Under the pieces are notes generated by a model. That model made no database searches, was not told the origin of the DNA, and was given only the letters and a program-made list of their open reading frames with translations. Positions 1,397 to 25,900 of a DNA stretch of 30,157 nucleotides are shown piece by piece; position 1 is the stretch's first letter, and every line of letters starts with the position of its first letter. The DNA is from a virus: IMG/VR virus record IMGVR_UViG_3300037245_003229, positions 1 to 30,157 of that record; one strand, written 5' to 3'. Made by a program: the position numbers and the translations under genes.

Positions 1397-4300
1397 TTAA
1401 ACAACTGTTTTAAATTCATTAGATACAACAATATTTACTTCTGAAATGTCCTTCCATATACCACTTATAATGACGCTGCAGGCCGTAACAGTTTTCAATG
1501 AACCACTTATAACGATTGAACCAAACGCACCCTCGCTTGGTTCCTCGGTAGAACCCGTAGCTGGTGTGGTTCCACCATCACTACCACCGTAGGGTTCGGT
1601 TGCTCCCCATGTTCCAAACTTGTCTTTTAACGTGTAAAAAGTTGATTCGAGCCATCCCTGCGATCTCAGCACACTTGAAAACCTAACCTCTGAAGTTATA
1701 CCGACTCTGTACCCCGGGGAATTATCTCTAACGGCACCTATTGACGTTCGGTCGAGTCCCGTTGGAAAACTTTGACTTGCGGTATCTGTTGTTTTATTCT
1801 TCCCATTTGTAAACACTGACCGACTTGTTGAACTTGAAAGGGCACTTGCTATATGACAAAAGTCACCATCGGTTAGTGCAGTTGTCCCCGTAACTGATTT
1901 AGTATTCGTAGTTACCGAACGTACGAACCCATCCCAGATGTTAAGGGTTATCATTTGACTTATACTACTTGCATCTGCTACAGCAGCTGAGGGACTCGTA
2001 TTTGTTGTCCCTACTACTTTTGCTGGTCCCGCTGCCTCAATAGTACACGGGTAATTCGAAAGAACGGAACTATTGATAACTAAATAATCGTTGCTCCCAT
2101 CGAATTCAATACCTTTACCAGGTTGCGCATCTACTAAATCGTCTGGGGTCATCGAGGCTTCTGCGATCATATTCTTTTCATTTGACGTAGAATCCTTGAT
2201 ATCACCTGCGCCTGCCGGACCCGGGTCTTCGTTTAGGTGGTAGACGCCCTCGAAACCACTATCCCATACACTTTGAGCCGGGGCATCCGTTACGTCCCCC
2301 ACATAGTCGGTATTGTCGTCTTGGTCCGGGTCGTAATAGAGGTAAATAGTTGCGCCGGTAGCTGGCACCGAACGAACCTTCGTATGTAGTATAGCTTTCT
2401 CGGTTAACGAATCCCATGTATCGATTTCTACGTAACATTGTCCCCCATTTGCATCACCTATCGCAATCTTTTTATTGTTAGGATGACCACTTGGCCATTC
2501 GATACTACCACTGTTAACTACGAAGTTGTCGAACGTTGCGGTCATCGTTGGATTGCCACTACCGGAAAACCATCTAAACGCGGGTTCCATTTTCTTCGCA
2601 TCTAAATCAATAACCGTTTCGGGTGAACCAATGGGATCCCACGTTCCGCCGGTCCATGCAAATGCTGTAAACTCGTTACCAACACGTGTTATACGAAGTG
2701 TACCAGACGTATCGGCCGTTGCTTCATTCGTTTCGGAATTCCACCCACCTACATCTTTACTAACCTTCGCATAATAATGCCCTGAATTATATTTCCTACG
2801 TACTTGAAAATGTAAATCGTCATTCGGGTCATCACCACCTGCGGCTGCAGCAATGAGATGGAGATACCAATAGTCTGACCCGGGTCCTGCCAAAACGTTA
2901 TAATCAACTTGTATATCAAAGTCCCCAGGAAGTACGAATGCCGATCTGACGTATTTTACTTCGCCATCAACGGTGGCATACGCTGCATTGCTTTGAATCG
3001 TTATACCGGTGTTTGCCGCCCACCTATCTGTATTTAAAGGGTCACCATCGTCCCCGGTAAAGTCATCATTTGCACTAAACGCAAGGATATCAAATATACT
3101 TGTTAAATCGTCACTACCTATCCCACATGAACTATCAAGATATAACGTAACCGGGAAATCCGTTAATGCCGCACTGGATGCTGAAATAGCGAAAGGACGT
3201 CGTTCAGCAAACGAACCTATCCACGTATTCGTTTTAACAGCAGAATAAGTAATAAGTGTGTCGTAAAGGGTGTTATACGTGGCTTTAACCCATGGAGCTG
3301 GCGGAGCCACAGACATTATCTGCGCCTCACCTATTACCCCCTCAAAGTAATTACCATAACCCCGTTTTCCTAAGTATAACTCGTCTGCCTTCGCATCCAT
3401 CGAAGTACTACCAACAAGGGATTCACTTTTTATTTCGACCCCGTCCATGTATATTCGCAGATAATCGCTTTCTCTTACTGCGTAAATAACATGTTCCCCT
3501 GGTGCCGTAATAGTATTTGCATCAGTTTTTAATTGGTAGTTGGCGGCAGCAGCAAAGTAATCAATTATAAGTTCTTTCTCCCAGTTACCCATGTAAGCAA
3601 ATTCAAATTGCCTTTGACCGGGACCATCCTTGCCCCAGATTACTCCCATATTTACGAAATCTTCAACACTGATTTTCGCCATAAAAGAAAAATCACCATC
3701 CGCAAAATCGACTAAAGGTGTATCTCCGAAATTAATTCCTTCGTTTTGGCCGTTATACCTCAGCCCCTTGCCAAAAGTCATATCCTCCCAATTACCAACA
3801 TCCATATTTTCGGGAGTACCATTTAGCTCACTATCAGTACTATCTAATATACAATTTGCACCACCAGAAGGATCTTGCATCATATGGTGAACCGATACAA
3901 AGTCATCATTCCATACAGTTTGAGCTATAGTGGCTCCGGTTGTGCCGACATACGTGGTATTGTCATTGGCCGCGGAATTAAAATAAAGGTAAAGAACCGT
4001 ATCATCAGTAGCCCCAATCACGGGGACTTTAGTATGGAGTACTGCTTTTTCGCCCACGTTGTCCCAGTTCTCTATTTCTACCGGGCATTGTGTGGTCCCA
4101 CCTGAGGTCGTAATGGCAATCTTTTTACTATTTGTACCGAGGTCATCGAATATTTCACTTAAATCGGTACCACCTATCCCACACGAATCGGATAGGTGGA
4201 TCATAACGGGAAAGTCGGTTAATTCAGAATCGATTAAAGAGGCGCCTATTGTAGCTTTAATACGGTTAGAAAAACCATCTAACCATTCGGCTTCGACTTC

Positions 4301-5323
4301 TAAAGAATAACTAACTAACGTATCTAACAAAGCATAGTTCGTTGCATGTTGCCAGGAAGCAGACCTTGCGGTTGTACTTAAACGGAATTCACCTATGTTA
4401 CCATACAACGTAAATGTGTCGGCTTGGTCTTCCCGACGGAATATATAGAAGGTCGAGTTGACACTTCTGTCTGTAATCGAACCACCACCATCTGCACTAC
4501 CATTGTTATAGTAGTTAAGGGACGTACCATCTTTTGTAAGTCCAAGGTTATACCACGTATCCTCACTAAGGCGCGTATCCGATAATTGTGAACCATCCCA
4601 CGAACTACCATTACCAAGAAAAACTCCCCAATTTAAAGTACCTGCAGTGTGGTCTAACATCAAACCAATAGTTTTTTCTTTTCCAAAGGCTTGATCGTAA
4701 CCAGGGTTAGGACCACCGGAAACGATGTAAGTTTGTAATTCAAAAGAAAAATTATTCCCAAGATTAAGTGCTGAACTAATGTCAATGTAGTCCCCAACAC
4801 CATTGGCTTGCAATGCCTTTCCTTTCGGACTGTCAACTTCTGTGAGGGTTCCTTGGGTTGTAACAGTTACGCCAGTTGCACAATTCATCAAAAATGTAGA
4901 ATCGTTCATATGAAAGACCTGGACGTAATCGCTATCCCACACATTTTGAGCTGCAGCAGAACCAGGGTCACCGACATAGTCCGTATTATCATCCTGGGTT
5001 GAATCGTAATAGAGGTAAAGGCTCGTGTCAGTCGCTGCTAAAACGGCCGGGACTTTTGTCCAAAGTATTGCATCCTCCCCAGTTTCATCCCAATACACTA
5101 CCTCTGCGTAACACTGGGTAGTACCACCAGAAGTCGTAATGGCAATCTTTTTACTTTCGCTTCCAAGTTCATCGAACACGGCGGTAAGGTCTTCGCCACC
5201 TATACCAGCACTTGCACTTAACTTCACCATTACAGGAAAATCAGTCAAACCAGTACTTACTTTCGAAGAATCGATAGTAAGTTCGATACGTTTATCTTCG
5301 GCCCACCCGGACAGATATGCCAT
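1397..5323 (-). CDS. Large tail fibre/receptor-binding protein with three DUF2341-LamG repeats
   Basis: A 1308-residue protein, ATG 5321-5323 preceded by AAGGGG. It consists of three tandem units starting near W7, W346 and W701. Each has a DUF2341-like stretch (LTDFPVMVKL, GIGG.DL..IFD, KKIAI.....GQCY, LYYD..QDDNT.YVG, VWDS) followed by a LamG/concanavalin-like stretch that begins at the HMND/HLNEDP motif and ends near YNTLYDTL. The third unit differs: about 190 residues (roughly 748-940) are inserted between IFDIL and NNKKIAIG and form an extra beta-rich module with the motif GDFDIQVDY at 800-808. The C-terminus after about 1235 is Gly/Ser/Thr-rich and then short beta-like. DUF2341 plus LamG is known in secreted and phage tail proteins and implies glycan binding at the host surface. 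It sits downstream of the tail-tip gene, the usual place for receptor-binding fibres. No trimerisation or chaperone domain was recognised. Confidence 0.8.
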   Translation of the reverse strand: MAYLSGWAEDKRIELTIDSSKVSTGLTDFPVMVKLSASAGIGGEDLTAVFDELGSESKKIAITTSGGTTQCYAEVVYWDETGEDAILWTKVPAVLAATDTSLYLYYDSTQDDNTDYVGDPGSAAAQNVWDSDYVQVFHMNDSTFLMNCATGVTVTTQGTLTEVDSPKGKALQANGVGDYIDISSALNLGNNFSFELQTYIVSGGPNPGYDQAFGKEKTIGLMLDHTAGTLNWGVFLGNGSSWDGSQLSDTRLSEDTWYNLGLTKDGTSLNYYNNGSADGGGSITDRSVNSTFYIFRREDQADTFTLYGNIGEFRLSTTARSASWQHATNYALLDTLVSYSLEVEAEWLDGFSNRIKATIGASLIDSELTDFPVMIHLSDSCGIGGTDLSEIFDDLGTNSKKIAITTSGGTTQCPVEIENWDNVGEKAVLHTKVPVIGATDDTVLYLYFNSAANDNTTYVGTTGATIAQTVWNDDFVSVHHMMQDPSGGANCILDSTDSELNGTPENMDVGNWEDMTFGKGLRYNGQNEGINFGDTPLVDFADGDFSFMAKISVEDFVNMGVIWGKDGPGQRQFEFAYMGNWEKELIIDYFAAAANYQLKTDANTITAPGEHVIYAVRESDYLRIYMDGVEIKSESLVGSTSMDAKADELYLGKRGYGNYFEGVIGEAQIMSVAPPAPWVKATYNTLYDTLITYSAVKTNTWIGSFAERRPFAISASSAALTDFPVTLYLDSSCGIGSDDLTSIFDILAFSANDDFTGDDGDPLNTDRWAANTGITIQSNAAYATVDGEVKYVRSAFVLPGDFDIQVDYNVLAGPGSDYWYLHLIAAAAGGDDPNDDLHFQVRRKYNSGHYYAKVSKDVGGWNSETNEATADTSGTLRITRVGNEFTAFAWTGGTWDPIGSPETVIDLDAKKMEPAFRWFSGSGNPTMTATFDNFVVNSGSIEWPSGHPNNKKIAIGDANGGQCYVEIDTWDSLTEKAILHTKVRSVPATGATIYLYYDPDQDDNTDYVGDVTDAPAQSVWDSGFEGVYHLNEDPGPAGAGDIKDSTSNEKNMIAEASMTPDDLVDAQPGKGIEFDGSNDYLVINSSVLSNYPCTIEAAGPAKVVGTTNTSPSAAVADASSISQMITLNIWDGFVRSVTTNTKSVTGTTALTDGDFCHIASALSSSTSRSVFTNGKNKTTDTASQSFPTGLDRTSIGAVRDNSPGYRVGITSEVRFSSVLRSQGWLESTFYTLKDKFGTWGATEPYGGSDGGTTPATGSTEEPSEGAFGSIVISGSLKTVTACSVIISGIWKDISEVNIVVSNEFKTVV

Positions 5324-5880: not shown

Positions 5881-8427
5881 TTATTCCTTATTGACTATTA
5901 AAGTGTTGTAAGGACTTTCATACTTTACACCATCCGTTGTTATGTAGTTCGTCAACTTAAATGTTATTTCATCTGGCAACGTCCCGCCATTCCACGCTTT
6001 AACTTGACCGTCGGTATAGGCCGCTGTAAGTGCGTCGATGGCGGTGTCGGTAAAAGCAACGGTAGAACCAATAGTTGCTAATACTTCAAAAAGGCCTTCC
6101 CATACGGGGAAAGCATCAACCACTACGTCGGGATCTTGGTTCCCTGCACCTTGACCACGAACGTCGGGGTCCCAACTTAATGAAATTGGGGTTACATATA
6201 CGGCACCTCCTGGTGTGTTTGGCGACGTTTCATTACACCGGAAATTCCCTGGGGCATAAGGGGTCCAAGCACGTCCCTCAACCTCGTAGGGGACTGTCCC
6301 CGCATCAGCAATCTCCCCACTTTCCAATGAATTGTAATAGATAAACTTGAAAATTCGGCTATTCCCTTTGAACAACCCTGGCATGTTTATTATCGGAAAC
6401 GAAACACCCAAAAAGAAGAACTTTGAGTTCACTCTATGGTTTATTTGCTCCGTATCAAATCGACCTCGGTATAATCCGGTCATTTCATATCGACCCGTAA
6501 TCCCAGTCGTCGGGGAAATCGTGTCAAATGTGATGATTTCTTCGGTCCCTGCACTCGTTATTAAAAGACCGAGGTTCTTCCCTGACAACATATCTGCCCT
6601 TGAAATGGTTTCAATATTAGCTGCATCGGAATCCCTATCGAAATCAACTGTTAAAGTATTTACGTTATCTAATACGGCTTTACTAACTGGCAGGGCATCG
6701 GTTAATGACCCCCCCGTTGTAAACTTACTGAAACTGCCTTGTTTAGTGTAGCTCGTTCCATCGGTTGACATGTAAAGGTGGTAACCCAATTCGTTACCAT
6801 TCTGTCGGCTAACAAGTGGGAGAAGGTACATGTTTTCACCAACCAGCGAATAAGGGGCCTCGGTAATCGCAGGTTCTTTCACATCTAATAAAAATTGATT
6901 GAGCTTTGTCCCAGATCTATCGGCCTCACTTACGTTTACGATCTGCGTTAAATAGTTCGCATCTTCAATCGCATTTACAAAAAACTCTTCCCTTCCAAGG
7001 TTTCCTTCCTTAACGTTCAATGTTTTAAATATAATTTCTTCGGTTATCCCGTACTTTTCCGAGGTATACCTAAAGTTCGTTCCTGGCATAAAAAGAAGGC
7101 CACGACGACCCATCTTCATACCAATCGTACGAAGGGGAACGCTGAGAGTTCGGACATTTTGAGCTGCACCCCACCGTGCATTGTCGTCGTTTGTAAACAG
7201 CATCATCCTCGAATCCTTATGGCGAATCCGATTCATCGTTTCCTTGTTCCCCATGTCTTCTGCGTGGACCGAGGCCTGGCGGATATCAATGGCCAACGAA
7301 CCTCCGACACCATCATTTGCGATACAACCACCTAAAATCGTACCAGAATTCCAAGTGAGATTATCGAAATATGCGTCGCATGCATTACTATAAGGTGGAC
7401 CCGTATAGGTCCAAAACGTTAGTTGCTGATCTACTAAATCAATATTATTGCGTGAGTGTAGTACCTCCCAACCACCGACCGGGGTGTAGGCCGAGATCAC
7501 AAAATCCTTACCAGTTCGCTTCATTCTAAGTTTTCCACCCAACGTTACACCCGCCGTCTCGGCAGACTGATAAATCCCACTGTGCCGCGATGCACCCCAT
7601 ACTGAAAAATGTGCAGCATTACTGGCGTAGTTTACGTATACATCACAAAACTCGGCGTAATTTGCATACGCATCGTATTTTATTCCAAACTGAAAAGTAT
7701 CATTTGATGCCTCTAACACCGATTTTATTGAATAGTCCACTTGAATATCGAAATCCCCTGCTACGGTACACTTTGGAGTAAACGCCCTTGTTCCCCCTGG
7801 AGTATAAAGACTACATTTGTTATCAACTATCGTTACTGGATTTACACTTGAATCCCACTTCGAGGCATCTAACGTTGCAGCACTTTGATTAAAATCGTCG
7901 CTTATGTATGGAAGTGCGTCACTTCCGAACCTGGGACAATGAATGCCCCCCGCAGTAACTTCAAAATCAGTTACACCACCATTGACAGAACATGAGGTAA
8001 TGCCAGATACACAATACGTCGAAAAATCAAAATAAGCGAATACTGGTTCACTTTTATAATAAAGTCCCCACCAGGTAGCATCTTCAACCCCATCGTCATC
8101 TTTCCACTTCCCTGTCACATTGTCAAACCATTGGAATCCCGTTTTAAATTGCGTTGCACTCTCCGGGTGAACTTCCCTTTTAATTTTAATCGTTAACGGC
8201 CAATGATCGGGATAACTTGTTACGAGGTGACTATGGGACTGGGAGCTTTGCGATTTAAAAAAAATAGAAAGAGCGCCATCGCCATTTTTTCGTATCTCAA
8301 CGTAGTCGTAAGTATTCGCGGCGTACGAATCGTTTCGTTCTTCAGTAAGTCCAAATCTAAATAGTGGCAAGTTATCGGCGGAACCACCATTTACAACAAG
8401 CGAATCGTAATCGAATGTTGCAACCAT
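5881..8427 (-). CDS. C-terminal part of tail-tip protein with lectin-like insertion (downstream of in-frame TGA)
   Basis: ATG 8425-8427 gives 848 residues, but the same frame is open upstream without a stop to the TGA at 8662-8664, where it meets the preceding gene in frame. An ATG start here would begin inside a beta-sandwich module (starting SDTFSG near 8650) and has only a weak AGGA box, so I treat this as the continuation of the tail-tip protein. Order: rest of the first lectin-like module (about 1-165), a second module (about 175-362, motif GDFDIQVDY), then conserved tail-tip sequence from IANDGVGGSL (about 363), including the PGTNFRYTSEKYGI region that resembles the distal part of phage tail-tip proteins. 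The C-terminal 110 residues look fibronectin-like. In gene transfer agents and lambda-like phages this protein forms the tail tip. Whether the two halves are made as one chain, by readthrough or repair, is unresolved. Confidence 0.7.
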   Translation of the reverse strand: MVATFDYDSLVVNGGSADNLPLFRFGLTEERNDSYAANTYDYVEIRKNGDGALSIFFKSQSSQSHSHLVTSYPDHWPLTIKIKREVHPESATQFKTGFQWFDNVTGKWKDDDGVEDATWWGLYYKSEPVFAYFDFSTYCVSGITSCSVNGGVTDFEVTAGGIHCPRFGSDALPYISDDFNQSAATLDASKWDSSVNPVTIVDNKCSLYTPGGTRAFTPKCTVAGDFDIQVDYSIKSVLEASNDTFQFGIKYDAYANYAEFCDVYVNYASNAAHFSVWGASRHSGIYQSAETAGVTLGGKLRMKRTGKDFVISAYTPVGGWEVLHSRNNIDLVDQQLTFWTYTGPPYSNACDAYFDNLTWNSGTILGGCIANDGVGGSLAIDIRQASVHAEDMGNKETMNRIRHKDSRMMLFTNDDNARWGAAQNVRTLSVPLRTIGMKMGRRGLLFMPGTNFRYTSEKYGITEEIIFKTLNVKEGNLGREEFFVNAIEDANYLTQIVNVSEADRSGTKLNQFLLDVKEPAITEAPYSLVGENMYLLPLVSRQNGNELGYHLYMSTDGTSYTKQGSFSKFTTGGSLTDALPVSKAVLDNVNTLTVDFDRDSDAANIETISRADMLSGKNLGLLITSAGTEEIITFDTISPTTGITGRYEMTGLYRGRFDTEQINHRVNSKFFFLGVSFPIINMPGLFKGNSRIFKFIYYNSLESGEIADAGTVPYEVEGRAWTPYAPGNFRCNETSPNTPGGAVYVTPISLSWDPDVRGQGAGNQDPDVVVDAFPVWEGLFEVLATIGSTVAFTDTAIDALTAAYTDGQVKAWNGGTLPDEITFKLTNYITTDGVKYESPYNTLIVNKE

Positions 8428-8661
8428 TTCGTAACTTTCCTGCCCCGTATAAAAATTCCACTTACTTATGGTTCTAAAGGTTTCCTCCCCTTCGTCTTCG
8501 GCCGTTTTTGCACCTACCCAATTAAGACGACCATTGCCATCTAATAGGGGCCAGTTCGTCGCAGACCCACCACTTGCTAAATCGTTAACATAAAAGGTTT
8601 GCCATTTCTCTACGCTTGGTTGTTGCCCTCCCGCCCCGGAGAAGGTGTCGGATGGGTCATA

Positions 8662-8664
8662 TCA
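8662..8664 (-). other. In-frame TGA separating two halves of the tail-tip reading frame
   Basis: The codons around it read ACG TGA TAT. Upstream is the 373-codon tail-tip N-terminal part and downstream are 78 open codons to ATG 8427 plus the 848-codon ORF, all in one frame (5881..9783, 1300 codons before the final TAA). I checked codon by codon that no other stop lies between 8427 and 8664. No in-frame ATG, GTG or TTG start occurs between the TGA and ATG 8427. TGA differs by one base from a Trp codon. Confidence 0.9.
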
Positions 8665-9783
8665 CGTAAAGCCCGTAACCTCACCACCATGTGCGAAATC
8701 GTAGATCTGGCTATACTGAACCTTGAGGTCATTAAAGGTATCGGCATATGAGATCGACGTAATGTCAGGGGGTTCCAAACAATCTTCATCTGTTACTAAA
8801 TCCATATCAGACGCAGCTATGGTACTCCTAAGTAAATCGGGTTCGAACTGCCCGGTGTCGTCACCATACGGCATTATACCCTGGACGTGCTGAAGGATGG
8901 AGTTTACGTACGTTATAGCAGAATCGTGTTTGAATAATATCGATGTACCACGTTTTTCATTTGCGTTATATAACGCATTTGCAAAATCTGAAAATTTCGT
9001 TTCGTTTAACCAGTCGGTGCTTAGTTGACATTGCTGGGATAAGATATACCAAATCGCATGCGCAGGGTTATAATCGTAGGTGTCGATTATATGGTTTGCA
9101 TTGAATGCAAATTCCGGGGTTTTCCTCATAACGAAACGAACAGTAGGAGCCCGATTATAACTGCCTAAACTACAGTCGTTAAAGAACGCCCAACAAAGTC
9201 CACGGTATGACGGGTTTTGATCGGCACCAACTACTCCCCCAATAGTGTCGTCGGCCACTTGGTCGGTTCCACCAAAAAAAAGAGTCATCGATCCCATGTT
9301 CTTTAACGTAATCGTTGTTTTCCCGTCTACTGCATCCGAGCGTAATAGATTACCCTTCCAAACCACTTTATCGTTCGCAAAAACGGTATAAAGTTCATCA
9401 ATGGGACCTACCGCAAGTCCTACCGCCCATGAGAGGAAATACTCGTATCCCGTTACAACCTCTTTTGAACTCCCACCGCCTTTACCACCACTTTCTTGTT
9501 TTTCAGTTACATCCTCAACGTGGCCTTCCCCATACCAGAAGATATTCCCTGCAGTTTTAGTCGTACCCAAAAAATCGGAAATGACTGCGCCCTCCTGCGC
9601 AGGGGTCAGATCTAAATTCGCAATATCGGGTTGACCAGAAGAAGGTACATCGGCTTCTAAAGGATCTACGATACCACCAAGACCTGCACCTATACTAGCA
9701 CCCATAATGGCCCCAGTCGGACCACCAATATAGTAACCAACTACTGCGCCTGCAACACCACCTATTATCTGCCCCATACTCAT
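8662..9783 (-). CDS. Tail-tip (TipJ/megatron-like) protein, N-terminal part
   Basis: 373 residues ending at an in-frame TGA. The N-terminus is a glycine-rich hydrophobic stretch (residues 1-40, GGVAGAVVGYYIGGPTGAIMG), typical of tail-tip proteins of this type, followed by PSSGQPDIANLDLTPAQEGA. The segment GYEYFLSWAVGLAVGPIDEL (about 114-133) and the block PAHAIWYILSQQCQLSTDWLNE match the order seen in phage central tail-tip proteins. The end (SISYADTFNDLKVQYSQIYD) is where homologues continue into further tip domains; here the frame reaches TGA 17 residues later. It follows the NlpC/P60-like gene with a 2-nt gap, as in gene transfer agent-like modules. A family member of this kind is normally well over 1000 residues, so 373 is short. 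See the downstream entry for the rest. Confidence 0.75.
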   Translation of the reverse strand: MSMGQIIGGVAGAVVGYYIGGPTGAIMGASIGAGLGGIVDPLEADVPSSGQPDIANLDLTPAQEGAVISDFLGTTKTAGNIFWYGEGHVEDVTEKQESGGKGGGSSKEVVTGYEYFLSWAVGLAVGPIDELYTVFANDKVVWKGNLLRSDAVDGKTTITLKNMGSMTLFFGGTDQVADDTIGGVVGADQNPSYRGLCWAFFNDCSLGSYNRAPTVRFVMRKTPEFAFNANHIIDTYDYNPAHAIWYILSQQCQLSTDWLNETKFSDFANALYNANEKRGTSILFKHDSAITYVNSILQHVQGIMPYGDDTGQFEPDLLRSTIAASDMDLVTDEDCLEPPDITSISYADTFNDLKVQYSQIYDFAHGGEVTGFT

Positions 9784-9785
9784 AG

Positions 9786-10253
9786 TTAGTACCTCATCCT
9801 TAAAACGTATTCCATTCGATTATAAAAATCCAAATCCCTTAAAACGCGCTTTTCAACTCGTAAACCGGTCAACGCCTGATATACCTCCCCGTTGAAATAA
9901 ATGCCGGCATGTGCCGGATGCTTACCCCATTTGAACAAAATTACGTCGCCATTCATTAGTAAGTTTGGGTCAACTTTAACGAGTTCACAATTATATTGTT
10001 CGGTCATCCCTTCTAACAACAAAGACCGACCATTGTGAAGATGCCAGTCGGGTTGATACCGCGGGATGCGAATTAAACGGCCATGGTCGGCACCCACAGC
10101 ACGAAACGATCGAACAACTAAATGAATACAATCGCAACCACGTTGCTTAACCCCGGTAAAGTGTTTATACGGGGTGTTCACCCAGGAATCGAGTTCGCCC
10201 TTTAAAGCACTTTCGTTATCTAAATCTTCGAAAAACCATTTATAGTCTGGCAT
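9786..10253 (-). CDS. NlpC/P60-like tail cysteine peptidase
   Basis: A 155-residue protein whose start overlaps the stop of the upstream gene (TAATG at 10251-10255). The catalytic cysteine motif is GCDC (probable nucleophile C42, followed by IHLVVRSF), and the second catalytic block is HPAHAGIYFNG with H115. WVNTPYKH before the cysteine is typical of the phage/gene transfer agent branch. The family cleaves peptide bonds in the cell-wall peptidoglycan. Encoded between the DUF2163-like protein and the tail-tip protein, it most likely sits at the tail tip and opens the wall locally during DNA entry. The third polar residue of the triad was not assigned with confidence. Confidence 0.88.
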   Translation of the reverse strand: MPDYKWFFEDLDNESALKGELDSWVNTPYKHFTGVKQRGCDCIHLVVRSFRAVGADHGRLIRIPRYQPDWHLHNGRSLLLEGMTEQYNCELVKVDPNLLMNGDVILFKWGKHPAHAGIYFNGEVYQALTGLRVEKRVLRDLDFYNRMEYVLRMRY

Positions 10254-11098
10254 TAGTTCACCCAGGTTGCCGGATTATCAAAAGGCATATACCGGAATCC
10301 TAAAAACCGGTCAAGGTCGCCATTACCAAGATTGTTATACTTGTCCCGGCAGGCATCCATCGATTTGTTGCACCCTGGCGCAGCGTAAATGTCTTCCCCA
10401 CCAATTAACCCCGGTATATAGAATTGAATCGTTATCACAGACCCAACATGGTTAGTGATAGTACGTTTATAGTTTCCCCACTTTATGTAACCTAACGTAT
10501 AGTATCCATCGTCCTCTCCACTAAAAGCAGAATCCGTTATCTGCAGGCCATTTGACGAAATGGATTCAATGGCTGAAACGGTTCCCCCATAAGACGTTAA
10601 GGCAACAGCACATTGGTCGGAATAAAGTTTTAGATTACAAGTAGGTTGATACCGCATCGTGGGTATCTTCATCTTTAAAAACTTTTCAAAACCGTGACAT
10701 TCAATAGTCCCCTTAACTCCATTATACTTTACATTCGCTACTTGACCAATGAATATGACACGTTTTTCAAGTGGGTCCTGGTCCCGGAACAACTTCGCAA
10801 CCTCAATCCAAATCATTTCGGGCATGGGTTGCGTTAAGTAGTTTGAAAATGCAGGGTTTAACCTCGAAACGTCAATTGTCATTTTCGAAATGTTAAGATC
10901 TGTATGGAATGCTGACCTTGACCGCTTAAACGTTGCGGCTTCGTAAGTAGCCCCACCAGTAGCAGGGTAAACGAAATTCGAATCGCCCGAAGTATAATAC
11001 CAGGCTGCGTCCAACGAATCGTTCCAGAATCGATAAATTTCAACCGGCTTTCGTTTATTAGCCTGGTCTTTCTCATAGTAAGACTCGGAAAGTGCCAT
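10253..11098 (-). CDS. DUF2163/BR0599-like distal tail protein
   Basis: 281 residues. The C-terminal motif GCNKSMDACRDKYNNLGN followed by FLGFRYMPFDNP is the hallmark of the phage BR0599/DUF2163 C-terminal region, and the middle carries RYQPTCNLKLYSDQC. The pairs of cysteines (TC, QC, GC, AC) suggest metal binding at the hub, as known for related gene transfer agent hub proteins. Both ends overlap neighbours by TAATG, consistent with translational coupling. In this family the protein forms the baseplate hub between distal tail protein and tail tip. No catalytic function is expected. Confidence 0.85.
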   Translation of the reverse strand: MALSESYYEKDQANKRKPVEIYRFWNDSLDAAWYYTSGDSNFVYPATGGATYEAATFKRSRSAFHTDLNISKMTIDVSRLNPAFSNYLTQPMPEMIWIEVAKLFRDQDPLEKRVIFIGQVANVKYNGVKGTIECHGFEKFLKMKIPTMRYQPTCNLKLYSDQCAVALTSYGGTVSAIESISSNGLQITDSAFSGEDDGYYTLGYIKWGNYKRTITNHVGSVITIQFYIPGLIGGEDIYAAPGCNKSMDACRDKYNNLGNGDLDRFLGFRYMPFDNPATWVN

Positions 11099-12288
11099 TA
11101 CAACGCCTCCTTCAATAGTCCATGGGTCGATTGGTTAATATTCGCAACGTTCCCCTTAACGAAATCAAGTTCTAATCGGTCCCCATTAAACCTCGAAAAT
11201 GTCATGAAACTAAATAACGTACGGTTAAGGTCGTTCACCCTTAACGCGGTTCCAATAGCAGCGCTAAGTGTGATTGTAGTGGAAGTAGCCGATTCGATTT
11301 TTCGGCATACGTAAGACCTGTTGGGAAGGCCAATAAACAAGTGCCTATTTATAATGTCATTCTCAACAAACAAGGTATCGTAATCGTAGTCAGCAACATC
11401 GATTAACGTTGCTCCTTCTGTTACGGCTGCCGTAGGGACAAGGTCTTGGTTCCATGAGGGCATCCAAAAACTATCGTACTTCCCCAATCGATGATCGAAG
11501 AAATTTTGAATATCCCATATAGTAGACCGCCCATCTGCGACAAGGCTAAACTTATTTACAAGGTGCGTATCGTCATCATCATACCACGACTCTACAGACG
11601 ACTTACCGATACCACCAATGACAAGATTCGGGTGAATAAAACCTTGACTTTTGGAGGCCTGAACCACAAATTCGAAAATCGGGTGCCCTAAGTAAGTAGC
11701 GCCAATAGTGGGTGTTGTATAACTGAAAGCTACTAAAGCAGACATGTCTTCCGCGGCATCTAAAGTTAACGTATCGGAGTTTGTGTTAAACCGCTTTATA
11801 TCAAAACCACTACCAAGACGAAAGTCGTAAACCGGCATAAAGTACGTAGTATCCTTATCCCAGGTATCTGAAAGTAAATCACTTGCACCAATCGTCGTAC
11901 CACTCACGGTATTGATCGTAATAACCTCATAATCGGTAAAATCATTCTTATTGATAAGGATTGCGTTTCGTCCCTTATAAAAATGACGATTCTCCGTTTC
12001 GGTTACTGCTACATTTAGTTGGGAAACGTTGGCATCGGCCCGAAGTGGGGTTAAGTCATGCCATATCGGTATACCCCATACCTTTTGCTTGTTTTTGAAG
12101 AGGTAACGACGGAACCAATTAGTTTTGGATCCGTCGTTACCAATAAAATCAAGTTTGGTATCTAACCGTGGCCACGTGAATAGAGCAGACCTCGTCTCTT
12201 CGCCCTTAACCGTCTTTAAGATCTCGGTTTTCCAGATATGGCTATAGTTTTGAGACTTAGGTCGTATTGTAAGATATATATCGGGCAT
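11098..12288 (-). CDS. Distal tail protein (DUF2460-like)
   Basis: 396 residues, ATG 12286-12288, overlapping the next start by TAATG. The block FFDHRLGKYDSFWMPSWNQD (about residues 265-284) resembles the conserved R.G....F..P motif of DUF2460-type distal tail proteins, and the position directly after the tape measure and before the hub protein is the expected one. The remainder is beta-rich and has no catalytic motif I can see. Its likely role is the ring that joins the last tail-tube ring to the hub. The N-terminal 200 residues are not recognised and are longer than in the simplest family members, so an added domain is possible. Confidence 0.65.
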   Translation of the reverse strand: MPDIYLTIRPKSQNYSHIWKTEILKTVKGEETRSALFTWPRLDTKLDFIGNDGSKTNWFRRYLFKNKQKVWGIPIWHDLTPLRADANVSQLNVAVTETENRHFYKGRNAILINKNDFTDYEVITINTVSGTTIGASDLLSDTWDKDTTYFMPVYDFRLGSGFDIKRFNTNSDTLTLDAAEDMSALVAFSYTTPTIGATYLGHPIFEFVVQASKSQGFIHPNLVIGGIGKSSVESWYDDDDTHLVNKFSLVADGRSTIWDIQNFFDHRLGKYDSFWMPSWNQDLVPTAAVTEGATLIDVADYDYDTLFVENDIINRHLFIGLPNRSYVCRKIESATSTTITLSAAIGTALRVNDLNRTLFSFMTFSRFNGDRLELDFVKGNVANINQSTHGLLKEAL

Positions 12289-12289
12289 A

Positions 12290-14404
12290 TTATAGTCCTA
12301 AACTTTCTCGGTTACTTGCAATAACGTTTATAACTGCATCCTGGCCTTCGGAACTATTTAAATAATCAGACATCATAGAAGGGTCAATAATATTCGCAAT
12401 CGTAACCTTCGGTGCGGGTGCTTCACCACCATTCGGAATAATGCGCCCCTTCGACTTAGGGGAAAACCCCTCGGGTCCGCCTGCACCAACTACAGCAGAA
12501 TCACCACGATCACTTATAAACCTTTCGGGTCCCTTTTCACCAACGATATAAGGTGTTCCTTTGTAAACATTACCACCATCTGCTTTCCCTGCAATCGCAC
12601 CTAAAACACCCGTAATAAGACCACCATAACCACTGCCACCACTTGAAGATTGTAAGGCATTGAGGATAGCCTGTTTTGCGATCATTTTTAAAATATCGGT
12701 TGTGAATGACGTAGCAAATTCACTAAACGCTTCTTTCGCACTTTTTGCTCCGGTTAAAAACCCTTCAAATGCATCAACCATACCACCCGCGAAAGCATCA
12801 TCCATCGATGCCCCGATTTTCTCGATTTGTAATTCAAGGTCAGTAAGAATTTTAGACCTCTTAATCGCATGCCATTCCTCGACTTTTGCCCGTTCAACCC
12901 CTGCGTTGAGGTATGCTTCAGTTAGTTCATCGAGTTTTTTTATTTCAAGGTCATACCTGGACAACGTTGCTTCATCGTAAGCCTTGTCAAACTTAGTTCG
13001 GAGGGATTGGTCACTCTTTGAAACCTCCTTTTTCTTAGTTGGTTCCGTTAGAGTCGGGGGGATAAACGGCTTAATCTCAATTTTAGAAGTTGCTTCAATC
13101 TTTTTATAAATATTGTCAACGAAACCACTGATTTTATCGTAATAGCTTTCCTCACTTGCGAGGTTAACCAACTGTTCAGACGTAATTTCCATACTACGGA
13201 ATGCTTCATCCGCCATTGCCGCAGAGGAGTCAGCAATATCATCGAATGATTTCGACACTTCTACGGAATCCAGGATTGCGTCCCCGAGTGCTTTTGTTAA
13301 GGGGTTCCCCAGGTACTTCCCTGACAGGGATAGGACTTTTCCCAATTTAAGAAACTTTCCCTCAAGGAGACCGAACAGGTCTGAAATCACTCGCGAAATT
13401 GCCCAAACACCAACAAGGATAACGCCAGAAACCCCATGCCATGCGGCTTCAAGTCCCAACCACACCATCTTCAGTCCATTAAACGCATCCATCATAAAGG
13501 CAACACCCTTTACGATTCCTTCAAGTGCACTAAGAACATTTTTACCCATGCGCTCTGCAAATTCTTTCATATCCCCTTTTTGTTTCAGTTCTTCAAATAA
13601 GTCAACGATTGCTTTAAGACCCGTCTTTATAAACGTAAAAACACCAGAATCCATGACCATGTTTCTAAACTCAAACCATTTGTCACCGAGCATACTCATC
13701 ATACCACTCCAGGTCTTCGCCATTGCAGTAGTTGCCCCGGCAAACTTAGACTGAGGTTCCGTCCATGCTTCTTTCAACCTCGTTCTGGTTTCTTCAAGCG
13801 AATACTTGACACCTGCGGTAAACCCCAACATCGACAACACACCTTTTTCACGGAATTGATCGGCTGCCGAAGCACCTGCGGAATACATACGAATAATCTG
13901 CCCAGTAGTATCTTCCATAGTCATATTGGTTGCTGCCGCCAAATCACCAATCAAGGGTATCCACTCGGACACTTCATCGATACCACCTTGCATTACACCT
14001 GCGAGGTTCGTAGCCGAATTCATAATTGCCTCAAATTCGAAGGGAACCTCACTTGCATAAGTGGACATACGCTTAAACATTTCTGCCCCAGCCTCAGCAC
14101 TACCCAATAGTATTGTCAATCTGAGGTTAAATGCTTCCGATGTTTTTTTGGCATCCATAAACGACTTTATAAGACCACCCAGGGCGAGGCTACCCATGAG
14201 GCCAATTATAGCCATCTTTAACCCGCCGAATCCTTTAATCAAGTTCTTTAAGGGACTTCCGATCTTCGCCAATGCCCCTTTAAAACCTTTTGCCTTCATC
14301 TCGGCCTTTTTTGCCTCGTCGCCAACGTCCTCAAACCCTTGTTCGAGTTTGTCGAGGTTTCTCACCCCTTCCTTTGTATCTACTGGTATCTTTAGACCTG
14401 ACAT
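12290..14404 (-). CDS. Tail tape measure protein
   Basis: I choose ATG 14402-14404 (MSGLKIPVDTK, after a GGGGGA box), giving 704 residues. An upstream ATG at 14443 would add only an Asn/Gln-rich tail (MLNINNNNNQGET) with no better ribosome site. Charged helices at 10-45 precede a hydrophobic segment at about 61-80 (GLKMAIIGLMGSLALGGLIK). A second hydrophobic region lies around VILVGVWAISRVISDLFGLL. The C-terminus has the typical tape-measure end GTPYIVGEKGPERFI. Tape measure proteins set tail length, roughly 1.5 angstrom per residue, so a tail near 105 nm is expected (inference). The first 74 nt overlap the -1 frame of the chaperone extension. No peptidoglycan hydrolase domain was seen. Confidence 0.9.
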   Translation of the reverse strand: MSGLKIPVDTKEGVRNLDKLEQGFEDVGDEAKKAEMKAKGFKGALAKIGSPLKNLIKGFGGLKMAIIGLMGSLALGGLIKSFMDAKKTSEAFNLRLTILLGSAEAGAEMFKRMSTYASEVPFEFEAIMNSATNLAGVMQGGIDEVSEWIPLIGDLAAATNMTMEDTTGQIIRMYSAGASAADQFREKGVLSMLGFTAGVKYSLEETRTRLKEAWTEPQSKFAGATTAMAKTWSGMMSMLGDKWFEFRNMVMDSGVFTFIKTGLKAIVDLFEELKQKGDMKEFAERMGKNVLSALEGIVKGVAFMMDAFNGLKMVWLGLEAAWHGVSGVILVGVWAISRVISDLFGLLEGKFLKLGKVLSLSGKYLGNPLTKALGDAILDSVEVSKSFDDIADSSAAMADEAFRSMEITSEQLVNLASEESYYDKISGFVDNIYKKIEATSKIEIKPFIPPTLTEPTKKKEVSKSDQSLRTKFDKAYDEATLSRYDLEIKKLDELTEAYLNAGVERAKVEEWHAIKRSKILTDLELQIEKIGASMDDAFAGGMVDAFEGFLTGAKSAKEAFSEFATSFTTDILKMIAKQAILNALQSSSGGSGYGGLITGVLGAIAGKADGGNVYKGTPYIVGEKGPERFISDRGDSAVVGAGGPEGFSPKSKGRIIPNGGEAPAPKVTIANIIDPSMMSDYLNSSEGQDAVINVIASNRESLGL

Positions 14405-14738
14405 TGTTTCCCCCTGATTGTTGTTGTTGTTGATATTTAACAACTAACCAATCGTACATGTAATTCTCAATTAGACTAATTCGTTCAAATTCCGTTATGG
14501 TAAGACCGTATATCTCACACACATCGGCAATCGTTTTCGTTGGTATAGGTGCAATTCCGTACCCTGGAGGCCTATCCCTGTGACTTAATTGTTTCCATAA
14601 GCGCCAACATAAAAGATTCGTACCTTGAAGTTCGTCAGGTTTGGCGCACTCACTACAAGGCGGGTCACCGTCCCAGGTTTCGTCACACTCTTCACAAGTA
14701 ACGTTGCCCGCCTTTGTCCAATCAAGATACGTAATTAC
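14331..14738 (-). CDS. Tail assembly chaperone, T-like extension made by -1 frameshift
   Basis: This frame has no convincing start of its own but joins the upstream chaperone gene exactly at a GGGAAAG slip site. After the shift the product reads VITYLDWTKAGNVTC and continues for 135 codons to TGA 14331-14333, giving a 273-residue G-T-like fusion, close to the lambda gpGT size. The extension carries a four-cysteine zinc knuckle (C153, C156, C166, C169 of the fusion), a Trp-rich LLCWRLWKQLSH segment, PPGYG, and a helical ISLIENYMYDWLVVKYQ segment. The last 74 nt overlap the tape-measure start in another frame. In lambda the minor GT product recruits tube protein to the tape measure; a similar role is likely here. 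Confidence 0.8.
   Translation of the reverse strand, partial: VITYLDWTKAGNVTCEECDETWDGDPPCSECAKPDELQGTNLLCWRLWKQLSHRDRPPGYGIAPIPTKTIADVCEIYGLTITEFERISLIENYMYDWLVVKYQQQQQSGGNNVRSKDTSRYKGRGEKPRQTRTRV
14657..14714 (-). repeat. 8-bp inverted repeat downstream of the frameshift site
   Basis: AAGGCGGG and CCCGCCTT arms are perfect complements at 14657-14664 and 14707-14714, with a 42-nt loop. The transcript meets the first arm 23 nt after the slip site. It could form a stem that stimulates frameshifting, but the spacer is longer than usual, so this may be chance. Confidence 0.3.
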
Positions 14739-16704: not shown

Positions 16705-17937
16705 TTAAACTATTTTATCGGAGTTAAAAATTCGCCCCGAAAGACTTTCGCAACCAATGTCAGACAACTCGCGTTTGACATTCCCCAGTATACTCAACTT
16801 CGCATCTACGGGCGCGGTGGCTAAAATCTTGTCCATATACGTTAAACATTGAATTCCCTCTTGAATTCTCATTAAACCAAGTTTATGAAACGCATTCATC
16901 AAATTCAATGGTTTCTTTGTAAACACAAACCCGGTTGACTGAACGAGTGGGTCTGCATCCATTTCTCTATACCGGTTAATGTAAGACTGCGCCCCTTCGA
17001 TAACCATGACCGGGTCCTTTAAATCAATACCGAGCAAAAGGATGGTATAGTTTAGATCAAGGTCTTTCGAAAAACGTTTCTTACCTTCGACACACCACCG
17101 TTTAGCCGCGTCGAAGTCCCCTATCCGTCTTGAAGTTTCGGTGGCCGAATAAAATATATTTCGCCTAACCTTCCCGGGGTCCATGTCCTCAAGGCGGTCA
17201 TAGTACGCTTCCGCCCATTCCATTGTCTTCTCGGGTCGTTGGTACGCCAAGTAGGCCGAATAAATCTGCATTAAATAAAACATTGCTTCGAAATCGTCGG
17301 AATTTGCGTCTAACTTCTTTTTAAGGAGGCTAACAGTTCGGTCAACCTTTACCTTTGACTCATCACGATTCAAGTCATACCCATAGTGAAGAATTTTAAT
17401 CCCACCACATACTGCGGCTTTCCCGGTGAATACTGGTTCATTATGGATCGTCGACTTATACCGCAGGTTCGACGTCCCCGAAAAGAACCTTGCGGGTTTG
17501 AACGTCGCCGCGATCTTACCCTTTACCATGTCTTCTAATTCAATTTTAACACACCCAACCATGTTCTTCGGGAGTTTAAGGAATTCCCCTTTCAAGGTTT
17601 CGGGGGAAGACCCTTCTAAAAACGTAAACTCTTCATCAGCATCGATGATCAACGTAAAATTAGTTTTAACCATCTTTAGTGCGACATTACGACACTTACT
17701 GAAGTAATTGCCTTCCCACGGAAACTCCTGGAGGCGGACTTTTGGATAATCCTTCCGTATAATGTCCATCGTTTTGTCGGTGCTTCCCGTATCGACTATA
17801 ACGATGTCATCGCACCATTGAATCGAATCGAGGCATCTCCGTATGTTTGACTCCTCGTTCTTTACGATCATACATGCTGTGATTCCAATACTTTTGTAAA
17901 ACTTCGGACTCTGTTTCTTAATTCTAAGTTTACCCAT
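16705..17937 (-). CDS. Family 2 glycosyltransferase with helical (TPR-like) C-terminal part
   Basis: 410 residues, start at 17937 after a strong AAGGAGG box. The GT-A fold signatures are clear: ACMIVKNEESNIRRCLDSI (residues 21-39), IVIVDTGSTDKT (45-56) and the DXD motif at D99-A-D101 in LIIDADEEF. After about residue 205 the sequence is helical with repeated aromatic and alanine positions (FEAMFYLMQIYSAYL, YYDRLEDMDPGKVRRN, EGAQSYINRYR), like the TPR part of SunS-type enzymes. It should move a sugar from a nucleotide-sugar donor to an unknown acceptor. It lies between the tail terminator and tail tube genes on the same strand, so it is expressed with virion proteins. It may modify tail proteins or host surface glycans; the sequence does not decide. 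Confidence 0.88.
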   Translation of the reverse strand: MGKLRIKKQSPKFYKSIGITACMIVKNEESNIRRCLDSIQWCDDIVIVDTGSTDKTMDIIRKDYPKVRLQEFPWEGNYFSKCRNVALKMVKTNFTLIIDADEEFTFLEGSSPETLKGEFLKLPKNMVGCVKIELEDMVKGKIAATFKPARFFSGTSNLRYKSTIHNEPVFTGKAAVCGGIKILHYGYDLNRDESKVKVDRTVSLLKKKLDANSDDFEAMFYLMQIYSAYLAYQRPEKTMEWAEAYYDRLEDMDPGKVRRNIFYSATETSRRIGDFDAAKRWCVEGKKRFSKDLDLNYTILLLGIDLKDPVMVIEGAQSYINRYREMDADPLVQSTGFVFTKKPLNLMNAFHKLGLMRIQEGIQCLTYMDKILATAPVDAKLSILGNVKRELSDIGCESLSGRIFNSDKIV

Positions 17938-22760: not shown

Positions 22761-22913
22761 TTATTCGTTTTGTTCGCGGTCCCCCTCTGGGTCAGGCGAA
22801 TCGTCTTCAGTAAGTTTAAGTGGAAGGAGTTTTCCGGTTTTGTCAACAAACGATATTGACCTCAGCCACTCCCGGAAATCGTCCTCGCTCTTTTTTGTAA
22901 TGTATTTTGCCAT
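22761..22913 (-). CDS. 50-residue charged protein coupled to the MuF gene
   Basis: The frame starts at ATG 22911-22913, inside the TAATG that ends the giant head protein, with AGGAGG upstream inside that gene. It reads MAKYITKKSEDDFREWLRS and ends in the acidic DSPDPEGDREQNE. The overlap and ribosome site make it very likely to be translated with the giant protein. No family is recognised. Confidence 0.7.
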   Translation of the reverse strand: MAKYITKKSEDDFREWLRSISFVDKTGKLLPLKLTEDDSPDPEGDREQNE

Positions 22914-25900
22914 TATAAACCTCCTATTACATCCCAAACCATTGGGTCGATATACGACTTCCTGGCCATCGCGGGTGTATTGTGTAAGAACTTACTTACC
23001 GTTAACGTTACTTCCTCTATAATTTTCGTCTTCTCTACGTCAGTCAACGTTTTCCCCGCATATTGTTCTAACTCCTCAAATGCTATCCTGGTTCCATGAA
23101 ACGTTCGGTAATCCTTGATGCTGTACGCCTTATCGCCAGATAACTCTCTTAAATACTTGTTAAGGTGCTTCGCCGTTACATCTGGGAATAATTTCTCCCC
23201 AGGTTTCGAAATTTCAATTCGGTCTTTAATGAACTCAGCAAGGTGACGATCGGTAACTTCATAATGCGCGTTTATACCTTCTTTTGCAACAAAATCGAGG
23301 GTAACCTTGTTTCCAACCACCTTTGCGTGTCTATGTTCTAATGTAGTAAGGCCGTATGCTTTCGTCTTCGCATTTAAGTCGGCATTGGTACCAATACGTA
23401 TACCGGTTTCATCTTCTAATTTAAGTAACATGGCCTTCGGATTCTTCTTCAAAATATCGACTTCTACTTTTCCTCGTATGGTACCCAACTTGCCACTGAA
23501 CAACCTTGACCGCTCGAACTTTTCTCGTGCCTTAGTTGCGACGTGCTCGGCCGAATACCGGTATTGCGTCTTCCCATTACGAGCTGTTCCGATCGCCTGG
23601 ATTTTCGCAGATGGGTCGGTAGAGATTACAACATCCTTCCATGCGGGTGGTAATTTCATTGCTTTCAACCTTTTTGCGACATCACCCTGGACAACCTGGC
23701 CCTGATACATAAAAATATCTCCAGAACGGGTATAATTAGTGTTTGGATCGATAGCCGGTGCCTTCGGTGCCTTAAACTGTTCTCCCATTACTTTATCTGG
23801 TGCTGCCACCTTCTCTACGGCCTTCTTCTTCGCAACCACTGTACTATCAAGTTCTTCAAGTTCAATCTGCCACCTACCATCAACCTTCGACTTCTTCACT
23901 ATCTTAAATTTACTATTTGGTGCGAATAAAATTTCGCTTTCATCATAACCTTCTTTGACAAACTCACTAATTGGACGGCCGGTCTTTCCCCTAACCTTAA
24001 ATAACACGCCTTTTGACCACTCACTCTCATCGACAAAATTTAACGCTGTATACCGGCTTGAAGAAGTTGACATAAGACCCTTTTCAACAAAAATGCCGCC
24101 CTCTTCCAACCCATCAATAAAGTTTTTATGAACAACCGAATCATCGAACGATATACCGCGATAAGACACGCCATCGTACTTCGGAAGTTTCGAATACGAC
24201 TTTAAAAAATTATCATATTCACTCCTATTTGATTTTAACCACTTCGATGCCGGCATATCACTACGTAAATCAGCATTCCACGAAGATGAAGAACTGTCTT
24301 TTATATACGTCTCTATAATACTGCGTTCGGCCGGATCAACCGTTTTAACGAATACTTCCATATCGGCATGAAGCTTTTTCGCATCCGTAAACACTTCGCT
24401 ACTTCGGTTTACCATCGGAACTTTTGGCTTCGGTAAGTCGCTTGGATCTACCACAGTAACCCGTATCTCGTCTATATCAGATCGTTTATAGGCCGCCATT
24501 AACTCAGAATCGTCGAAAGCAGTTGTGTAGTACTTACCATCTCCCAGATCAACCACTACGATGTGCTTGCTATCCAATTCCTTTTGCAAGTCCTCGGGAG
24601 AAAGGTTTAACGAACGCTTTACTCCCGGAACCCGACCTTCCTTCTCTACGAAAACAAGGTCATCCGTTTTAATATTCTTCCTGACATGCTTGTACTTACG
24701 GTTTGCTGCCGATACATCATTCGATACGCGGTCAATTAACGCATCTTCCTGATTAGTTAGTTTATATTGTGGGTACTTCCCTTTATCAACCTCATCCAAT
24801 AAACCCGTTACACTAACCTTCGGTTTAATGACTTTTGGTACTACTATCTTCGATGGTTTCACGCCCTTTCTGATTGCGGTGCCGAACCCCTCATCGTAAT
24901 CGAAAATAATGTTTTTCGGGTACTTTGCAGCCATCTTGTCCCACCATCCAGCCGACCAATCGTTGTGGACGTAAATCTTGGCGTCTGAAGGCGAATTCTC
25001 GATAAGGTTATCGACCATTTTCGTTCCCCAGCCTGGCCGCCCGGACGATATTTCATCAACAACTATATCGCCATTCTTATACACCTTGATGGCCATGCCT
25101 GTGTGCTCTTTACCACCAGGGATAGTCACCGGGGTTCCCATTGCCTCTTTATCGCTAATCATAATGGTACGGTACTTCTGTTTCGGATCGAAAACCTTCC
25201 CTACCTTTACGTACTTCATTTCAGGAATAGTTTGAAGATTCTCTAAAATATTCTTGGTTACGAGATCGTCGGCTGCTACAGGCCACTTAGTCGAAGTTAA
25301 ATCTTCGAGACCTGCTTTTACTACACTTTCCCCCTTTAACGCAACGACGTTCTTTTTGTCAAAAACAATAAACTGGTTTCCACCTAAGAATTCGAAATCG
25401 CCGGTTCCCTCTTTCAACGTAAGTTGCATTGAATCGTAGCCCTTCTCCTCAAGCAAACGCTGTAATACACGACCATCGAGTTCCTCAACGGGACCACCAT
25501 CGTATAACTCGTCGAATATGGCGGACCTACGTTTTGCATCAACATCGTCAGCAATCATCCTTGATAAAGACCTTTCAATTCCCTCTTCAATATCTTCGGC
25601 CGAACCTTCGTAGTCAAAGTCATCTATCTCAACGGCTCTTCCACCTTTAACCTTATACGTCTTCTTAACGTTAACTTTAAATGCATGTGCATCTTGGTCA
25701 TACAAGTCTTCATACATTTTCGCAGTTCGTTTATCGGTTCCGAAGTAAGCACCATCTCCCCATAACTTATACGACCCTGGTCCTTTTTTCGTTGTATCAA
25801 ACCCAGCATCTGCGATCTTTGCGTAGCTTTTGTCCCCCGTTACATGCCAGACGATCTCATCATGTGTACTCTTAACTGCCCACTTATCGGCCTCGATGTT

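Follow-up and report, generated by a model that had tools for sequence, protein, structure and literature searches.

The baseplate hub gene of the virus analyzed here is interrupted by one in-frame TGA, which is probably a lone, lineage-specific nonsense codon, i.e., either a genuine variant of the phage population or an error introduced during sequencing or assembly. The window, meaning the whole stretch of DNA that was analyzed, comprises 30,157 bases of an IMG/VR virus record and carries its genes on the minus strand. Taken alone, the TGA probably reflects a stray base change, and the comparison of the hub family matters more: one β-hairpin turn of the hub is a hot spot at which display domains are inserted, and across the family the hub is specified by a single gene or by two or three genes whose borders lie around this turn.

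The Hub Gene and Its In-Frame TGA

The hub gene is read on the minus strand from 9783 to 5881 and comprises 1301 codons including the terminal TAA; among the 1300 codons preceding the TAA, the TGA at 8664-8662 is the sole internal stop. The first in-frame ATG, GTG, or TTG past this stop is the ATG at 8427-8425, 78 codons further on. An earlier note on this DNA had described a frame open except for the TGA with its next start at 8427, and its coordinates are confirmed, the minus strand having been left unstated; a dependence of the C-core on 8427 is wrong, because a TTG at 7296 with a strong Shine-Dalgarno sequence also lies in frame. The features of the gene are as follows.

8665..9783, minus strand: N-core of the predicted baseplate hub, 373 codons before the TGA; family alignment covers residues 1-363
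8662..8664, minus strand: in-frame TGA in a variable linker, 10 codons after the N-core
8428..8661, minus strand: stretch open after the stop, without ATG, GTG, or TTG; 78 codons that retain their coding signature and are homologous to the relatives' insert
7951..8661, minus strand: first insert domain, a predicted ConA-like jelly roll (lectin/glucanase-like); AlphaFold2 model of low-to-moderate confidence with Foldseek matches
7297..7950, minus strand: remainder of the insert, a second, predicted β-rich module; aligns with L007, L011, L014, and L020; pLDDT < 50
8425..8427, minus strand: first in-frame ATG after the stop; moderate Shine-Dalgarno sequence, -7.2 kcal/mol, best 4.6% of background
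7301..7305, minus strand: GGAGG, Shine-Dalgarno-like sequence, -10.1 kcal/mol, best 0.9% of background
7294..7296, minus strand: in-frame TTG, candidate start of a separate C-core; aligns with the C-core ATG of split relatives
5881..7296, minus strand: C-core with Rcc01698_C domain and TAA end; Pfam PF23666, E=5.1e-11; PHROG 1101 columns 354-715

The frame 3′ of the TGA extends for 926 codons, for which the chance probability of containing no stop is approximately 6e-26. The coding signature is native throughout these codons, with no decay seen, and amounts to 0.267 in the 78 codons between the TGA and ATG 8427, compared with 0.276 ± 0.086 in other genes. Since the 926 downstream codons are open and have kept their coding signature, the stop arose recently, does not exist in reality, or is read through. 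The TGA is located at the border between the N-core and the insert, 10 codons past the N-core end and within the variable linker; columns 353 and 354 of PHROG 1101 flank the insert, which bears out the earlier placement of the stop at an insertion border.

Identity and Genomic Context of the Hub

As judged from its sequence, the gene product is a baseplate hub of the Rcc01698/gpJ type, belonging to a siphophage or a gene transfer agent (GTA)-type tail. Both sides of the window gene directly match the PHROG 1101 tail protein: residues 53-363 of the N-core match profile columns 30-353 (E=2.5e-47), and the C-core matches columns 354-715, whereas approximately 470 codons, including the stop, lie between these adjacent columns in the window. 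The Rcc01698_C domain was detected with PF23666 at 43.2 bits, compared with a cut-off of 27. Furthermore, the family profile matches the solved hubs 8vjh (E=1.1e-34), 8rk3 (4.4e-31), 8gtc (4.8e-14), and 6tba (9.1e-14), among which the phage Chi tail-tip hub (8vjh) and JBD30 gp53 (8rk3) are the best solved relatives. In Chi, the N-core match ends at residue 289 and the C-core match resumes at residue 291, with no insertion there; because both sides meet at these residues, the N-core and C-core form one continuous hub. In JBD30, which is without the lectin insert, the two profile matches are 22 residues apart. The N- and C-terminal hub domains of Rcc01698, the "megatron" of gene transfer agents, and of roseophage R4C (6tba, 8gtc) match the window as well, and these systems have the upstream order of BR0599/Gp84-like and NlpC/P60 genes in common with it, whereas the window differs from them in its predicted ConA-like insertion between the cores and the TGA at the border of this insertion.

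The hub gene follows the tape measure, hub-attachment, and NlpC/P60 genes, as expected for an Rcc01698/gpJ-type hub, and these upstream tail genes (9786..14443, minus strand) run in GTA-like order.

12290-14443, minus strand: tape measure; frame intact
11098-12288, minus strand: PHROG 1082 tail assembly; frame intact
10253-11098, minus strand: BR0599/Gp84-like hub attachment; frame intact
9786-10253, minus strand: NlpC/P60; frame intact

Three further genes of the window, all on the minus strand, deserve mention. Downstream of the hub, 1397-5323 encodes a protein of 1308 residues that contains DUF2341 and three Laminin_G_3-like stretches and is probably another adhesin. A glycosyltransferase-like gene (PHROG 13126) at 16705-17937 is located among structural genes, and 22913-29587 encodes a polyvalent protein of 2224 residues that combines Phage_Mu_F, ADP-ribosyltransferase-like, and topoisomerase IB domains.

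The Insertion between the Cores

The insert between the N-core and C-core comprises approximately 455 codons. Its AlphaFold2 model is all-β with a mean pLDDT of 46, the first 237 residues being better modeled (mostly 45-79). Among structural matches, Foldseek retrieved L-type lectins, GH16 glucanases, and calreticulin lectin domains at E of approximately 3e-5, from a model of low confidence. A Pfam search of the insert gave no match, and a scan with the insert as a direct query found no relatives at the sensitivity of that scan. "Lectin-like" is thus a reasonable, though not proved, description on the basis of the model; the lectin-like β-sandwich proposed in the earlier note agrees with the all-β fold and the ConA-like matches, at low confidence. 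The possibility that the insert is an intein or intron and not a lectin was rejected informally, because it forms a coding frame, its model is ConA-like, and fused relatives carry homologues of it.

The insertion site was located in a model of an insert-free relative (L005), where it corresponds to a turn between strands 345-354 and 357-367. This model has moderate confidence near the site and low confidence overall (mean 55), and its top Foldseek/PDB matches are the JBD30 and Chi hubs. The structure models are weak because few relatives can be aligned.

Fused and Split Hubs among Relatives

In the alignment, six co-linear, insert-bearing relatives (L002, L007/L008, L011, L014, and L020) are open at the TGA column. 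The N-core of L002 is 73% identical to that of the window, and those of L007 and L008 are 61% identical; the sequences of L002 and L007 are cut off by the ends of their contigs, whereas those of L008, L011, L014, and L020 are complete. The site is open in both L007 and L008, which derive from two samples and are distinguished by 2 bases over 11.4 kb. The earlier note had suggested that relatives be aligned for the residue at this site and that the TGA had arisen from TGG. The aligned residues are variable, with small gaps, as in a linker, and no conserved Trp or Cys is found; a change from TGG is therefore unsupported, and the idea that this column holds a conserved residue of any kind was rejected. 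A search of viral contigs with the exact flanks of the stop, its last two bases being left free, recovered no copies among records that may exclude those closest to the window, and a scan of genome contigs found no relatives. Matches in Vibrio phages annotated as two features were not counted as a split hub, the second feature being the end of the preceding gene.

Among 35 de-duplicated relatives with both cores, a fused hub occurs in 9, whereas 26 have it in two or more genes; these labels derive from HMM matches and open reading frames in contigs possibly carrying errors themselves. The tree requires at least four changes between the fused and split states and places the window within a mostly fused clade. 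The split hub genes of uncultivated relatives (L009, L013, L015, L026, and others) have the N-core, insertion site, and C-core as in the window. Their stop is located 103 to 551 codons beyond the N-core, i.e., after an insertion, and their C-core has its own start, which is nearly always ATG (MAIDILQ, MAIDIVE, MTVEIRQ). By contrast, the stop of the window precedes the insert, and the frame then continues uninterrupted into the C-core; this stop, 10 codons past the N-core, is unlike that of every split relative. The two-gene relatives with a separate start that the earlier note had named as a refuting case thus exist, although they are cut at the far end of the insert. A single uninterrupted frame, which the window gene lacks owing to the TGA, is not a defining property of the wider hub family, because 26 of the 35 relatives are not in one frame either. 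Neither does the window show a start and ribosome-binding site soon after the stop, as a split hub would, its next start being 78 codons away.

Origin of the In-Frame Stop

The likelihoods attached to the following explanations are judgments and were not computed. Because the stop is not conserved and a recoding signal is absent, a recent change or an error is the most likely explanation, as inferred from the open relatives and the sequence around the stop. Judged by its column in the alignment, the TGA is not a conserved recoding site. Among 35,305 codons of N-core and C-core in the relatives, one other unexplained in-frame stop was found, a TAG in L030. The resulting stray-stop rate of approximately 1 per 35,000 codons, a rough value derived from one family, predicts approximately 0.25 such stops in the approximately 9,000 codons of the window. 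The TAG of L030 (L030:1055-1057) is alone in frame inside the hub N-core and serves as a comparator for the window TGA; an in-frame stop in L042 is directly followed by ATG, which makes it a true gene border, and was left out of the stray count. Compared with L007/L008, no syntenic tail gene of the window is broken, and no other in-frame stop occurs. Gene ends in the window are dominated by TAA (20, compared with 2 TGA including that of the hub), which suits a random stop better than a designed end. Three observations count against the stray-stop reading: a random stop within 15 codons of either insert border is an approximately 5% event, TTG 7296 with a very strong Shine-Dalgarno sequence occurs exactly at the C-core start of the split relatives, and natural splits at this insertion are common among the relatives.

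The ancestral product would have been a single 1300-residue hub consisting of the N-core, lectin domains carried on the β-hairpin turn, and the C-core. If the stop is real, translation would yield the N-core of 373 residues, with the lectin mostly lost. Hub assembly would still be possible with a C-core initiated by itself at TTG 7296, as in relatives that initiate it from an ATG in this position, and the N and C halves may pair via the strands of the hairpin.

A functional split, in which the N-core ends at the TGA, the C-core starts from TTG 7296, and a two-chain hub is cut at the β-hairpin turn, is unlikely on balance and nevertheless the strongest competitor. It is not far-fetched, because many relatives are naturally split at the insertion (26 of 35, with the aforementioned state changes). 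The duplex of TTG 7296 with GGAGG amounts to -10.1 kcal/mol, exceeding 99% of random positions (best 0.9% of background) and on a par with the window's best genes. The TTG reads (L)AIDIRQASV, so that L-AIDIRQ is exactly in register with M-AIDILQ and M-AIDIVE of the split C-cores, and the junction corresponds to the turn between strands 345-354 and 357-367 in the low-confidence L005 model. The closest fused relatives have ACT, CAG, or GGA in this register, and no such site is present in any fused relative. The coincidence is a lead that might prove meaningful; it was noticed post hoc, and a Gly-Gly linker can give GGAGG by chance. If TTG 7296 were used, the N-core and C-core of the window would be two chains without the lectin, which would be lost or made at a low level via leakage or ATG 8427. 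However, split relatives stop at least 103 codons after the N-core and keep the insert on the N-gene, compared with 10 codons in the window, and the lectin is still encoded by an intact frame that continues into the C-core, a state in which a lost lectin would not stay. Furthermore, other genes of the window mostly end in TAA, and TTG starts are rare in it.

Programmed or leaky readthrough of the TGA, yielding a short N-core and a long, lectin-bearing hub at a set ratio, is improbable. UGA is the leakiest of the stop codons, and this leakiness would favor readthrough, as would the 926 intact downstream codons with their native signature, including 78 codons beyond the reach of any ATG, GTG, or TTG start. 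However, the stop is absent from the six open relatives, and RNA structure downstream of the TGA does not exceed that of shuffled sequences (z +0.41, +0.90, and -0.24). The short product would be without the C-core unless TTG 7296 supplied it. A precedent exists in phage Q-beta, in which a capsid protein is made by readthrough (PMC12469967), and frameshifts are known in phage tail-assembly genes (PMC3091744); in the part of the literature that was searched, no comparable case of readthrough in a tail hub was found. Among the three options raised in the earlier note, a nonsense change or an error is therefore best supported, whereas regulated readthrough found no positive evidence.

A tail-tip translational switch, in which a leaky TGA where the lectin insertion begins and an internal ribosome site (TTG 7296) where it ends give two hub forms from a single frame, is a distinctly improbable elaboration. 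If true, two-chain hubs without the lectin would coexist with one-chain hubs that bear it, and mixed trimers would tune receptor binding.

A restart at ATG 8427, giving a second protein of truncated lectin and C-core, is very unlikely. Its moderate Shine-Dalgarno sequence (-7.2 kcal/mol) speaks in its favor, although no relative is split there and the 78 codons left untranslated still look fully coding. According to the model, the first four predicted jelly-roll strands would be removed, and ATG 8427 is therefore unlikely as a designed start.

Reading of the TGA as an amino acid or selenocysteine is scarcely credible: the open frame is all that speaks for it, whereas no stable hairpin follows the TGA and the column has no conserved Cys or Trp. 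The code is standard, because TGA occurs in frame inside no other likely gene of the window, TGG is common (approximately 17 per 1000 codons), and TGA terminates the gene at 18353-18351 within an ATGA overlap; the earlier dismissal of a code change on the basis of this gene end is thereby supported.

Hub Cassettes in Related Phages

In one clade of relatives (L055:4079-10768, L059:8001-14636, and L042:3905-9326), the hub consists of an N-part, two or three cassettes, and the C-core, with an extra cut of the hub near residue 310. The cassettes have a common N-terminal plug of approximately 52 residues (M..KFxLxLLR..EEPxFxR..TxNDIKVQY), followed by largely different display domains, which suggests interchangeable tail-tip modules for one hub slot in one phage genome. 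The same 52-residue plug on several cassettes predicts that one phage can fit different tips into one slot. Furthermore, L021:1853-7054 carries two whole hub N-genes in tandem, of 861 aa each and 63% identical, upstream of a single C-core gene; together with the cassettes, this arrangement looks like alternative tips for one hub slot. In L003:1-2147, very long Ser/Glu-rich repeat proteins (SSSSSSE) are encoded beside and within the tail genes.
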